Source: Croceivirga thetidis (lineage in GTDB: Bacteria > Bacteroidota > Bacteroidia > Flavobacteriales > Flavobacteriaceae). Taken from it: 64,000 bases of DNA. This document shows positions 5,020 through 54,727 of the stretch, one piece after another. The translations under genes and the position numbers were made by a program. The stretch's first letter is position 1, and each line of letters starts with the position of its first letter. The notes beneath the pieces are model-generated. The model did no database searches. It was not told where the DNA came from and was given only the letters and a program-made list of their open reading frames with translations. The stretch lies in the NCBI RefSeq assembly GCF_012272815.1, contig NZ_JAAWWL010000001.1, positions 1,142,154 through 1,206,153 of the forward strand, in the 5' to 3' direction.

Positions 5020-5715
5020 TTATACCATTGCTCCAACAGCCCTGTTTTGGCTTTCGGTTACAATTTGACCGTCAAATAAATTAATGACCCTATGTGCATA
5101 ATGTGAGTCCCTGTCAGAGTGTGTCACCATTACAATTGTCGTACCTTCTTGGTTTAATTCGGTCAAGAGGTTCATGACCTCGATGCCATTTTTAGAATCC
5201 AAATTACCTGTTGGCTCATCCGCAAGAATGAGTTTGGGGTTTGTCACAACAGCCCTTGAGATGGCGACCCTTTGCTGCTGACCACCTGAAAGTTGTTGCG
5301 GGAAATGCTTTTCCCTATGGGCAATTTTCATTCGTTCTAAAACGGTTTTTACTTTTTCACGTCTTTCGGATTTACTCATCTTTAGATAAATCAATGGCAA
5401 TTCCACATTTTCAAAAACGGTTAGTTCATCAATCAAATTAAAGCTTTGGAATACAAATCCGAGGTTTCCTTTGCGCAATTGCGTACGTTGACTTTCTTTA
5501 AGGCCCGCAACTTCATGACCCGCAAAATTGTAGCTTCCTTCCGAGGGGTTGTCCAACATTCCGATTATGTTCAATAAAGTGGATTTGCCGCAGCCAGAAG
5601 GCCCCATTACTGCAACAAACTCACCTTCTTCTACACTTAGGTTGACCCCGTTTAAGGCCAAAGTTTCTACTTCTTCCGTTCTAAAACTCTTTTTTAAATT
5701 CTGGATCGTTATCAT
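5020..5715 (-). CDS. ABC transporter ATP-binding protein, MacB/LolD type
   Basis: The 231-residue cytoplasmic ATPase has a Walker A motif GPSGCGKST (38-46), the signature LSGGQQQRVAISRA (about 142-155), Walker B LILADEPTGNLD and the switch histidine in VTHSDR. The length and the DEPTGNLDS sequence place it with LolD/MacB/FtsE-type ATPases that pair with FtsX-like permeases. It is the only ATPase in the cluster and so probably energises both permeases. It starts 13 bases after the adaptor gene, in the same operon. Confidence 0.93.
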   Translation of the reverse strand: MITIQNLKKSFRTEEVETLALNGVNLSVEEGEFVAVMGPSGCGKSTLLNIIGMLDNPSEGSYNFAGHEVAGLKESQRTQLRKGNLGFVFQSFNLIDELTVFENVELPLIYLKMSKSERREKVKTVLERMKIAHREKHFPQQLSGGQQQRVAISRAVVTNPKLILADEPTGNLDSKNGIEVMNLLTELNQEGTTIVMVTHSDRDSHYAHRVINLFDGQIVTESQNRAVGAMV

Positions 5716-5728
5716 TTTTGATTGATTT

Positions 5729-6979
5729 TTATTTTAATACAATTCTTTCTGCTTCTCCGAAGCTATCATAATTACTGGTTATTACTCGTTCGCCGGGTTC
5801 AAGCCCCTCAAGAACCTCAAAGTATCTTGTGTTTTGTTTGCCAACCCTAATATTTCGTTTGATGGCTTCATTACCGCTAGGATCTACAACAAATACCCAT
5901 TGACCACCGGTACTTTGAAAGAACCCTCCTTTTGGTAGTAGTAAAGCATCGTTGGATGCCCCTAATTGCAATCTAATGTTATAACTCTGACCCGCACGGA
6001 TTGTCTCTGGCTTATCATCAGTAAATACGAGGTCAACATTGAATCGTCCATTACGAACCTCTGGATATACTTTTCGCAAGCGCAATTCAAATTCGTTTCC
6101 ATTGCGTTCCAAACTGGCAGAAAGATCACGCTTTACGCGATCGATATAATGTTCGTCAATGGCAGCTTCTATTTTAAAGTCTGTAAGCACATTAATCTGC
6201 CCTATTCGCTGACCTTGACTAATGTTCTGACCAATTTCCGCATCTAAAAATCCAAGCTGCCCATCTGCAGGGGCACGAACATTTAAATGGTCCAAACGTT
6301 CGTAAACCATACCCAATGTTTTCTTCATACGCTGTAAATCAGTATCTAATCCGGCCAATGAGGTTTTACGAAGCTCATCATCTTGCTCCGTTTGCAGTTT
6401 CACGATTTCGTATTGCTTTTTTGCCAATTCGTAATTTTCCTTTGAAGTAAGGTAGACTTCTTTAGAAATAAGCTCGTCAGCATAAAGGGCTTCATTCTGC
6501 TCAAAGTTTCTTTTGAGGCGCTGCAAATCGGTTCCGGTAGTTGCCAATGAACGACGGCCTTCGACTTGTCGTGCATCAAACGTAAGTCGAGTTGAACGTA
6601 GATCATTTTGTTTTAAAGCCAAGTTGCTTTCACTTGCCAAAATCTGTTCGTAGAGGTTCATATTTTCCAACTTCAAGATGATATCACCTTTTTTTACCAT
6701 CGCTCCCTCTTCAATTAATTTTTCAGACACCCGTCCTCCTTCATAGGCATCCATATAAATTGTAGCAATCGGGGCTACATTGCCGTTTATGGTAATGTAG
6801 TCATCGAATTTTCCATTGGTTACTTCAGAAATCGAAAGCCGCTCTTTTTCGGTCCTAAATGTAGACTTGGTATTGCCAAAAGCCAATTTCCATCCTACAA
6901 AAAGGAGTAGCGCTCCAATAGCGATGTACCCATAGTGTTTTGGGCGAAGTCCTTTTTTCTTTTCCAGTTTTATATCCAT
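5729..6979 (-). CDS. HlyD/MacA-family periplasmic adaptor of the efflux system
   Basis: The 416-residue product has an N-terminal membrane anchor (about 16-35), a first half-lipoyl segment (GNVAPIATIYMDAYEGG), a long alpha-helical hairpin (about 110-225), the second half-lipoyl segment (LNVRAPADGQLG) and beta-barrel and membrane-proximal domains ending near ERIVLK. This is the membrane-fusion protein layout that links an inner-membrane transporter to a TolC channel. It starts 2 bases after the TolC-family gene, so the two are translationally close, and precedes the ATPase. Confidence 0.92.
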   Translation of the reverse strand: MDIKLEKKKGLRPKHYGYIAIGALLLFVGWKLAFGNTKSTFRTEKERLSISEVTNGKFDDYITINGNVAPIATIYMDAYEGGRVSEKLIEEGAMVKKGDIILKLENMNLYEQILASESNLALKQNDLRSTRLTFDARQVEGRRSLATTGTDLQRLKRNFEQNEALYADELISKEVYLTSKENYELAKKQYEIVKLQTEQDDELRKTSLAGLDTDLQRMKKTLGMVYERLDHLNVRAPADGQLGFLDAEIGQNISQGQRIGQINVLTDFKIEAAIDEHYIDRVKRDLSASLERNGNEFELRLRKVYPEVRNGRFNVDLVFTDDKPETIRAGQSYNIRLQLGASNDALLLPKGGFFQSTGGQWVFVVDPSGNEAIKRNIRVGKQNTRYFEVLEGLEPGERVITSNYDSFGEAERIVLK

Positions 6980-51575: not shown

Positions 51576-52184
51576 ATGGCTTTTGAACTACCTAATTTAC
51601 CATATGACTATGATGCTTTGGAACCGCATATTGACGCCCGTACTATGGAAATACACCATACAAAACATCATAACGGTTACACTACAAAATTAAATGCTGC
51701 CATTGCTGGGACTGATTTGGAAGGGAAGGATATCTTGGACATTCTAGGAGGTCTCGATATGTCTAACGGGGCAGTTCGAAATAACGGAGGTGGATTTTAT
51801 AATCACTCGTTATTCTGGGAAGTTATGTCGCCTGACGGAGGGGGCAACCCTTCAGGTGAACTAGCTGATGCAATAAATAGCGCATTTGGTTCTTTTGATG
51901 CTTTCAAGGAAAAATTCAGTGCTGCTGCAGGAACTCGTTTTGGTTCAGGTTGGGCTTGGCTTTGTGTTATGCCAGGTGGCAATCTTGAAGTTTGCTCCAC
52001 ACCTAACCAAGATAATCCGCTAATGCCTGAAACAGGATGTGGAGGAACACCTATTTTGGGATTGGATGTTTGGGAGCATGCGTATTACCTAAATTATCAG
52101 AATAGAAGGCCAGACTATGTGACCGCTTTTTTCAACGTAATCAATTGGGACAAAGTAGCAGAGAATTACGCCAGCGGAAAGTAA
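51576..52184 (+). CDS. sodA: Superoxide dismutase [Fe/Mn]
   Basis: The 202-residue enzyme has the metal ligands in HTKHHNGY (His26 region), [15 protein letters not shown] and the [15 protein letters not shown] segment (Asp and His). The N-terminal [21 protein letters not shown] is typical. Metal preference cannot be told with certainty. It removes superoxide in the cytoplasm. A strong terminator follows. Confidence 0.95.
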
Positions 52185-52254: not shown

Positions 52255-52328
52255 GAATAGAAAAGGGCAGGAAAACCTGCCCTTTTCGTCCCAAATCTTA
52301 CCATAAACTTAACCTACTTATGCTATGG
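52255..52328 (-). ncRNA. Small-RNA-like unit 1 (of three tandem copies)
   Basis: On the minus strand TTTG, 19 bases, TAATTTAG (complement of 52334-52341), then 5 bases, then the conserved block that begins CCATAGCATAAGTAGG (from 52328 down) and ends TAAGATTTGGG, then a 12-base terminator stem (AAAAGGGCAGG/CCTGCCCTTTT, loop TTTT on the transcript) with TTTTC. The unit is about 74 bases. Of the three, this copy has the best -33 element. A coding role is unlikely because only the few codons after a shared ATG (MVRFG) are conserved. Confidence 0.6.
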
Positions 52329-52436
52329 CGAGACTAAATTACTGGTATTGTGTTAAATAACAAAAAAATATAAGGTTTTTTTAGCTTTTGAAAGGGTGTG
52401 ATTTGGAAAATATAAAGTCTAAAATGTTGGTAGTCA

Positions 52437-52511
52437 AACAAAAAGAAGGCAGGTATTAACCTGCCTTCTCACCCCAAATCTTACCATGAACTTAACCTAC
52501 TTATGCTATGG
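52437..52511 (-). ncRNA. Small-RNA-like unit 2 (of three tandem copies)
   Basis: On the minus strand a perfect -7 element TACATTTG (complement of 52517-52524) stands 5 bases before the conserved block starting CCATAGCATAAGTAGG at 52511. It is followed by a 10-base terminator stem (AGAAGGCAGG/CCTGCCTTCT, 6-base loop) and TTTTGTTTG. The -7 octamer is the same as that of the OmpA gene. Spacing of promoter, block and terminator is the same as in units 1 and 3, while the terminator stems differ in sequence. Confidence 0.65.
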
Positions 52512-52654
52512 TTTTCCAAATGTACTTCAAGCTGCTTCGAGGGCCTTTATTTATTAGATAAACACCGCTAAATTGGGTTGAAATACCAGTAAGGGATAAT
52601 TTGATTTCAACTATTGAGGAAAAGGAGTACAATTCTTGAAAGCTGGATTGCTAG

Positions 52655-52729
52655 AAAATAAAAAAGGTGGAAAGAATCCACCTTTTTTGCCCCAAATCTT
52701 ACCATGAACTTAACCTACTTATGCTATGG
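52655..52729 (-). ncRNA. Small-RNA-like unit 3 (of three tandem copies)
   Basis: On the minus strand TAAATTAG (complement of 52735-52742), 5 bases, the conserved block from 52729, then an 11-base terminator stem (AAAAAAGGTGG/CCACCTTTTTT, 7-base loop) running into TTTTTTATTTT. It is the copy nearest to purF (stop at 52829), with about 100 bases between. The block is identical to that of unit 2 across about 38 bases. Confidence 0.65.
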
Positions 52730-52828
52730 TGATTCTAATTTACTTCTTGAGAATTGTATAAAATTAAAAAGACGCTAAAATGTTAATTTCATCGACGAAC
52801 GGTACTTAAGTATGGATGAAATGAAGTT

Positions 52829-54727
52829 TTAGTAGGCTCGTTTGTTCTTTCCTTCATAGAAATTAATGAAAGCTCGATTGACTACCTTATTGCCTCCAGG
52901 TGTTGGATAATCACCTGTAAAATACCAATCACCAAGATTTTTAGGACAAGCCAAGTGAAGGTTAGCAATGGTTTGATATATAATCTCTACTTCAGCTTTT
53001 AAGTCTTTAGGACTCAATAACTCCCCTATTTTTTTAGAAATTTCTTCTGTAGTGAATGGGGCATAGAATTCCTTTACATGATTGACAACTTTTTTGTCTT
53101 TCAAATTGACCTGTTCTTGACATTTTTTATAAATGTTGTCAATAATGTGGGTGGTACCTTTTTCTTTATGTAATGCAAGTGCGGCCCTAAAGGCTACAAA
53201 GTCTTCAAGTTTGGCCATATCAATACCATAACAATCAGGGTAGCGAATCTGAGGAGCTGATGAAACCACAACGATTTTTTTAGGGTTCAAACGGTCAAGC
53301 ATTCGCAAAATACTTTTTCGCAATGTCGTTCCCCTAACAATACTATCGTCAATGATAACCAAGTTATCATCATTATTTATTGAGCCATAAGATATGTCGT
53401 AGACGTGGGTAACCAAATCATCTCTGCTACTATCTTGTGTAATAAATGTTCTAAGCTTTGCATCTTTAATCGCCACCTTTTCAATGCGAGGTCTTACATC
53501 AAGAATTTTGTGAAGATCATTCCTGTCAATATTATTTCCAAGTGCAAGGATTTGTTCCTCCTTTTTTTGGTTCAAATAATTTTGAGCTTCTTTGATCATA
53601 CCCAAAAAAGAGGTTTCGGCAGTATTTGGTATGTAAGAGAACACAGTATGGGTCAAATCATCTCCGATAGCCTTGAGAATTTCTGGAAAAACCAGTTTAC
53701 CTAGTTGTTTGCGCTCCCTGTAAATTTCGTGGTCACTACCGCGTGAAAAGTAAATACGCTCGAATGAACAAGCCTTTCTCTCAGTAGGTTCCAATATTTC
53801 TTCTACCGAAATCTTACCACTCTTTTTAATTATAAATGCATGGCCAGGAGGTAGCTCTTGAACAGCATCAAAAGGCACATTGAACACAGTTTGAATAGCT
53901 GGACGTTCAGATGCGACTACAGCTATTTCATCATCATGATAAAAATAAGATGGGCGAATTCCTGCCGGATCGCGAAGCATAAAAGCGTCTCCATGTCCGA
54001 ACATTCCACCCATGGCGTAGCCGCCATCCCAATTCTTCGCTGACTTTTTCAATATTTTGGCAACATTGAGTCGTTCTGCAATATGTGGTGAAGCCTCACG
54101 CTTATTGAACCCTTCTTTTTTAATTTCCTTGTATAATTTGGCAACTGCATCATCTAAGAAATGACCAATACGTTCCATTACCGTTATTGTGTCTGCCATT
54201 TCTTTTGGATGTTGACCCAATTCAACCAAGTTTCCAAAAAGTTCGGTAACATTCGTCATGTTGAAGTTTCCTGCAACAATTAAGTTTCTGTGCATCCAAT
54301 TGTTCTGCCTAAGAAAGGGATGTACACTTTCAATACTATTCTTGCCGAATGTGCCATAACGTACGTGCCCTAGCAATAATTCACCTATGTAAGGTATATG
54401 TGATTTTTGATAGCCAACATCATCCCATAGTTGTGGTTTTTGAGCAATCTCTGTATTTATTCGCTCATTAATCTGGGAAAAGATGTCTTGAATAGGTTGC
54501 TGTTTAGCAGACCTTATTCTACTTATATAACGTTGTCCAGGTTCAACATCTAGTTTGATACTTGCAAAACCAGCACCGTCTTGGCCACGATTGTGCTGTT
54601 TTTCCATCATCAGGTACATTTTATTAACCCCGTAAAAGGCCGTACCATATTTTTCTTTATAGTATTCGAGTGGTTTTAACAATCGAATTAATGATATGCC
54701 ACATTCGTGCTTTATGGGGTCACTCAT
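52829..54727 (-). CDS. purF: Amidophosphoribosyltransferase (long Bacteroidota form)
   Basis: The 632-residue protein starts MSDPIKHECGISL; Cys9, exposed after removal of the short leader, would be the glutaminase nucleophile. NTN-domain motifs QHNRGQDGAG and LLGHVRYGTFG follow, and the PRPP loop is NLVIIDDSIVRGTTLRKSI (about 455-473). It is longer than most PurF (about 470-510), with an extra C-terminal region of about 90 residues (VNHVKEFYAPFTTEEISKKI to the end). It catalyses the first step of purine synthesis. Ten bases after the PfkB-type kinase gene, so probably co-transcribed. Confidence 0.9.
   Translation of the reverse strand: MSDPIKHECGISLIRLLKPLEYYKEKYGTAFYGVNKMYLMMEKQHNRGQDGAGFASIKLDVEPGQRYISRIRSAKQQPIQDIFSQINERINTEIAQKPQLWDDVGYQKSHIPYIGELLLGHVRYGTFGKNSIESVHPFLRQNNWMHRNLIVAGNFNMTNVTELFGNLVELGQHPKEMADTITVMERIGHFLDDAVAKLYKEIKKEGFNKREASPHIAERLNVAKILKKSAKNWDGGYAMGGMFGHGDAFMLRDPAGIRPSYFYHDDEIAVVASERPAIQTVFNVPFDAVQELPPGHAFIIKKSGKISVEEILEPTERKACSFERIYFSRGSDHEIYRERKQLGKLVFPEILKAIGDDLTHTVFSYIPNTAETSFLGMIKEAQNYLNQKKEEQILALGNNIDRNDLHKILDVRPRIEKVAIKDAKLRTFITQDSSRDDLVTHVYDISYGSINNDDNLVIIDDSIVRGTTLRKSILRMLDRLNPKKIVVVSSAPQIRYPDCYGIDMAKLEDFVAFRAALALHKEKGTTHIIDNIYKKCQEQVNLKDKKVVNHVKEFYAPFTTEEISKKIGELLSPKDLKAEVEIIYQTIANLHLACPKNLGDWYFTGDYPTPGGNKVVNRAFINFYEGKNKRAY

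Follow-up and report, generated by a model that had tools for sequence, protein, structure and literature searches.

Three tandem small RNA genes predicted between purF and sodA in Croceivirga thetidis: a Flavobacteriaceae family with complementary sites in mRNA leaders

The window analysed here, a stretch of 64,000 nucleotides from Croceivirga thetidis, contains three minus-strand units at 52255-52742, bounded by two fixed neighbours, a PurF-like amidophosphoribosyltransferase gene upstream (52829..54727, minus strand) and a convergent superoxide dismutase gene downstream (51576..52184, plus strand). As the original prediction had it, the units are real, each having a promoter box, a gap of exactly 5 bases to the CCATAGC start, a shared core and a terminator of its own. 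In copy 1 the -7 box TAAATTAG (52735..52742), which matches the Bacteroidota sigma-A box TAnnTTTG described in PMC9723704, is followed by a type A core (52691..52729, predicted +1 at 52729) and a 12-bp terminator hairpin (52660..52688). In copy 2 the -7 box TACATTTG (52517..52524) precedes a type B core (52473..52511, predicted +1 at 52511) and a 12-bp hairpin (52443..52470), and at about -47 there is the motif TCTAATA (52552..52558), which is common to type B copies across genera and is possibly an activator site. In copy 3 the promoter region (52334..52370), for which 32 non-redundant type C copies give the consensus TTTTATTTCCCACAATACCAGTAATTTAG, contains the -7 box TAATTTAG and is followed by a type C core with U at position 24 (52290..52328, predicted +1 at 52328) and again a 12-bp hairpin (52260..52287). 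All features of the three copies lie on the minus strand. The three boxes fit TAnnTTWG, while a -33 TTG is clear for copy 3 only. The 39-nt core, CCATAGCATAAGTAGGTTAAGTTYATGGTAAGATTTGGG, has one internal difference, C24 versus T24 (copy 3), and the next base, 40, is G, G and A in the three copies; the 12-bp stems are perfect and differ in sequence (AAAAAAGGTGGA, GAGAAGGCAGGT and GAAAAGGGCAGG), with a T-rich stretch after each. With the +1 and 3' ends read from the sequence, the predicted RNAs are about 72-77 nt long; they begin with a small hairpin at the 5' end, continue single-stranded and end in the terminator. A 21-nt core pattern with at most 3 mismatches has 3 matches in the window versus 0.01 expected, and none elsewhere in the 3.7-Mb genome. 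A promoter, a short predicted transcript and a terminator with compensating changes, which are found together here, are what intrinsically terminated sRNA genes would be expected to have.

The core pattern is present in 235 of 299 Flavobacteriaceae genomes, with 1-7 copies each, and a covariance model built from 50 copies gives strong matches, of 57-95 bits, in Flavobacteriaceae only; with the same model the other families of the order score about 33 bits or below, which is not above noise. Of 111 loci, which come from many genera, 107 have purF upstream and/or the convergent sodA downstream of the array; this points to a single locus that was inherited and duplicated in tandem rather than to a mobile repeat. 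Moreover, the three copy types recur in the fixed order A-B-C, and some genomes that are negative for the pattern carry diverged copies at the same purF/sodA place. In other Flavobacteriaceae without the sRNA (loci L270, L274, L277 and L278) the purF-sodA gap is shorter than about 150 bp, a clean empty site.

In the terminators it is the pairing that is conserved while the sequence changes: a perfect stem of at least 8 bp (G-U allowed), typically 13 bp, occurs in 341 of the 342 copies with a readable terminator, and among these there are 109 different 5' arms, which bears out the compensating stem changes noted originally; the spacers between copies, described there as unconstrained, are indeed unrelated. 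The core is conserved as sequence, with 28 invariant columns in 50 diverse copies. For the 5' hairpin, covariation was looked for and no compensating change was found, and the hairpin may be less important than its conservation suggests. In diverged Flavobacterium copies the variation falls mainly at positions 4-11, with UAGUAGGUUAAG and GGUAGAUUUGGGG kept. A conserved peptide encoded in the core was considered and rejected, as one-base indels (TAAGATTT/TAGATTT) break the frame. Each copy type has its own conserved upstream region, with a TCTAAAA-like motif at -46/-47 in many copies of types A and B and, in type C, a conserved stretch of about 40 bases that reaches the start. From this we infer that the copies are under different transcriptional control; because the promoters differ and are conserved separately, the copies would respond to different signals. 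Between genera, the copy 3 promoter region shows much stronger conservation than promoters normally do, and it may hold an activator site or have another function.

No Rfam family reaches the gathering level in the array, nor does Flavo-1 in the whole window. Flavo-1 RNA occurs in the same broad bacterial group, and a relation to it had been suggested, but Flavo-1 gives no match to the array at E values up to 10; it and all other Rfam families are rejected as the identity of the array RNAs. The nearest family, FopS of Bacteroides (RF04319), scores 18.1 bits versus a gathering score of 56. FopS RNAs repress susC-type mRNAs at the start codon and are bound by the RRM protein RbpB (PMC11697453). 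They resemble the array RNAs in being multicopy Bacteroidota sibling sRNAs with sigma-A promoters and terminators of their own (predicted here) and in pairing at the start codons of envelope-protein mRNAs (here in complementarity only), whereas the shared sequence is limited to UUCAUGGUA..AGAUUU. The FopS genes are scattered, and their RNAs have no 5' hairpin, AAGUAGGUUA segment or GGGG; they have a single-stranded 5' seed R1/R1', UUCAUGGUAUUAGAUUUAAGG, and the terminator comes straight after it. The array RNAs are built differently, with a 5' hairpin and with GGGG in place of the FopS AAGGUUAA. In addition, the C. thetidis genome has no RRM_1 protein. Over 247 genomes of the class, the FopS model exceeds its cut-off in 7 genomes of other families only, and not at this locus. 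With 18.1 of 56 bits and a different seed layout, the array RNAs are not classed as FopS; what the two have in common may go back to a remote shared origin or to a similar pressure exerted by leaders that contain AAAUCU.

Two other groups of sibling sRNAs, Qrr and OmrA/B, require Hfq. Together with LhrC and csRNA, they are like the array RNAs near-identical sRNAs with an invariant seed, varied promoters and shared targets, but are unrelated to them in sequence; all four are among the sibling sRNAs listed in PMC11697453. From the same bacterial family as the array RNAs come the Rfp1-Rfp89 transcripts of Flavobacterium psychrophilum (PMC9723704, which lists 85 new RNAs). Rfp18 is described there as conserved in the genus Flavobacterium and as affecting secreted metalloproteases, and it differs from the array RNAs in being described with at least three stem-loops; one of the 85 new RNAs may belong to the array family. 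A literature search with the core sequence gave no match, and the best reading would be a new sRNA family without an Rfam entry.

Two segments of the RNA are invariant, AAGUAGGUUA in the loop of the 5' hairpin and (UA)AGAUUUGGG in the single-stranded tail, and both are complementary to sites that lie within the first codons or 2-30 nt ahead of a start codon (CCCRAAUC-N-AACCUACUU-AUG). The proposal of the GGG-rich end as the pairing segment proved correct. In C. thetidis, 757 leaders in stretches totalling about 0.8 Mb, around a quarter of the genome, were scanned, together with genome-wide pattern searches, and in the scan, complements to the two conserved segments were found next to each other. 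The candidate targets in this genome are a 123-aa lipoprotein, a subtilase-like protein, a TPR histidine kinase and a GH5-cellulase lipoprotein, where the subtilase-like protein, which is named from sequence, has a C-terminal sorting-type end and gives no Pfam match in its first 186 residues. Cofolding of C. thetidis targets gives ddG values of -24.0, -21.8 and -18.6, versus about -9 for shuffled targets, and the best duplex, that with the mRNA of the 123-aa lipoprotein, consists of two helices, 12 and 13 bp long, between which 8 nt of the sRNA form a loop. A 172-aa exported protein also shows strong pairing, and a CAP-domain lipoprotein is a recurrent candidate in other genera. A PorP/SprF-like type IX secretion gene (L298:7181-8092) with a CCCAAATC...CACCTAACTTAAG leader has z of -3.3, and it is possibly a weaker target.

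The two-part pattern CAAATCTN{0,8}AACCTAC, searched in 120 genomes, gives 71 matches versus about 40 with the reversed control, and at 19 of 30 program-chosen loci a start codon lies at or right after the site; the pattern alone is thus mildly enriched over the control, and the signal lies in the location. Orthologues of the 123-aa lipoprotein were then gathered by protein only, being present in 35 of 199 genomes, and 30 leaders were read. In 17 of these 30 leaders, two of which belong to search seeds that had themselves been found by the site (the seed proteins being 42% identical), CCC[AG]AAT-N(0-16)-CCTAC is present, starting at -29 to -21, versus 0 of the 757 control leaders, and the site ends 2-11 nt before the start codon or overlaps it. 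Compared with 200 shuffled cores, 16 of the 30 leaders fall in the lowest 2.5% of energies, with 4.8% of control genes at a comparable level, where the p-values overstate independence because the lipoprotein orthologues share ancestry. Conserved complementary sites in several mRNAs, as seen here, would be expected of base-pairing sibling sRNAs. Two further candidates were rejected. SusC genes are FopS targets but are not preferred by the array RNA, with 29 SusC-like/TonB-type leaders pairing no better than 107 other genes, and a longer start-codon complement, AAATCTTACCATGAA, has matches near the backward control, the sRNA genes themselves aside.

A special case among the candidate targets is an unannotated ORF of 33-42 residues with the end (K/R)KLFML or similar, which lies just after scoB in many genera (loci L339-L368). 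It is conserved as a protein across Flavobacteriaceae, with synonymous changes, and has no Pfam match. The leader of this ORF is, in one large clade, complementary to almost the entire sRNA core (CCCCAAATCTACCATAAACTTAAAAACTTATG, the ATG of which is the start); codons 4-13 contain a second site, and some genomes have further copies upstream. When genomes are sampled by scoB alone, the ORF is found in about 10 of 17 that bear the sRNA (one with a broken frame) and in 0 of 7 that lack it. In four genomes (G059, G115, G044 and G107) UAGAUUU in the sRNA is matched by AUCUACC or AUCUAUC in the leader. For the C. thetidis copy, at C1:925723 on the minus strand (L405/L445), the pairing is weak, with ddG of -8.5, the same as shuffled once folding is counted.

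Based on these data, we consider with a probability of about 0.78 that the units encode trans-acting sibling sRNAs of about 75 nt with a two-part seed, which repress mRNAs of envelope and secreted proteins without Hfq. The reading as sibling regulatory RNAs had been proposed from the array itself, and it is supported by the conservation across the family at one locus, the compensating changes in the 109 terminator arms, the promoters specific to each type and the complementary mRNA-leader sites. Each unit would be transcribed from its own promoter to its intrinsic terminator, and the RNA would bind a leader via both segments and keep the ribosome off, so that the synthesis of envelope and secreted proteins would be lowered, with the copies acting additively. 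As the segments are complementary to sites before start codons, translation switch-off is what we infer, and with site ends 2-11 nt ahead of the AUG, one would expect the ribosome to be blocked; it is the position of the sites that would point to repression. Hfq was detected in none of 12 genomes, C. thetidis included, in a search that recovered its positive controls, and RRM_1 neither in C. thetidis nor in 10 of 11 relatives (present in 1 of the 12), which would suggest chaperone independence.

The same searches for a chaperone would also suit RNAs that mainly bind and titrate a protein in the manner of 6S or CsrB-type RNAs, with the leader complement being coincidental or otherwise caused; the extreme conservation of the core and the multi-copy arrays are in keeping with such a role. 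However, both invariant segments are matched, in order, at the start codons of several unrelated gene families, and the sites are present too in orthologues chosen regardless of the site, so we regard protein titration as very improbable. Alternatively, the mRNA of the scoB-linked ORF could be a sponge that titrates the sRNA and is its main partner, which would be in keeping with the near full-length complement and the additional repeats that its leader has in many genera. This is improbable, for the ORF is conserved as a protein and is missing next to scoB in several genomes that have the sRNA, and other targets have single sites.

It could also be argued that the sRNA activates its targets, for instance by mRNA stabilisation or leader opening, since deletion of Rfp18 lowered target mRNAs in F. 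psychrophilum (PMC9723704). We consider this unlikely, given that the sites lie immediately before or over the start codon, a position at which pairing prevents initiation, an effect demonstrated in vitro for FopS-10 on susC (PMC11697453). Practically negligible is the explanation, raised with the original prediction, that the repeats are mobile-element end copies or a repeat family without RNA function: several near-identical copies do stand side by side, but they are not transposon ends because the similarity stops at the promoter and the terminator and the locus is syntenic across the family; moreover, there are no dispersed copies in the C. thetidis genome, and the terminators are conserved as pairs only.

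Flavobacteriaceae are dominant degraders of marine algal polysaccharides and include fish pathogens, and to our knowledge little is known about sRNA control in them. A deeply conserved sRNA family that is absent from Rfam and offers concrete candidate targets and mutable base pairs would make base-pairing sRNA action in Bacteroidota without Hfq directly testable, and would be an independent parallel to the FopS control of envelope proteins. More tentatively, and rather doubtfully when all parts are taken jointly, there would be a family-wide Hfq-free regulon in which a two-part seed spanning a looped-out hairpin arm controls the surface and secreted proteome, including the scoB-linked protein with its near full-length antisense leader, and some phages would carry a shortened two-seed mimic.

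Finally, we note that two IMG/VR contigs, L448 (reverse complement 5951-5975) and L450 (reverse complement 5180-5204), contain AAGTAGGTT-(4-5 nt)-TAGATTTGGGGAAATC with a terminator-like hairpin behind it. In these elements, which lie near terminase or structural genes, the two sRNA seeds are joined and the hairpin arm is missing; they could represent a phage mimic, but in a collection of this size a match to 19 fixed bases may also be a chance event.
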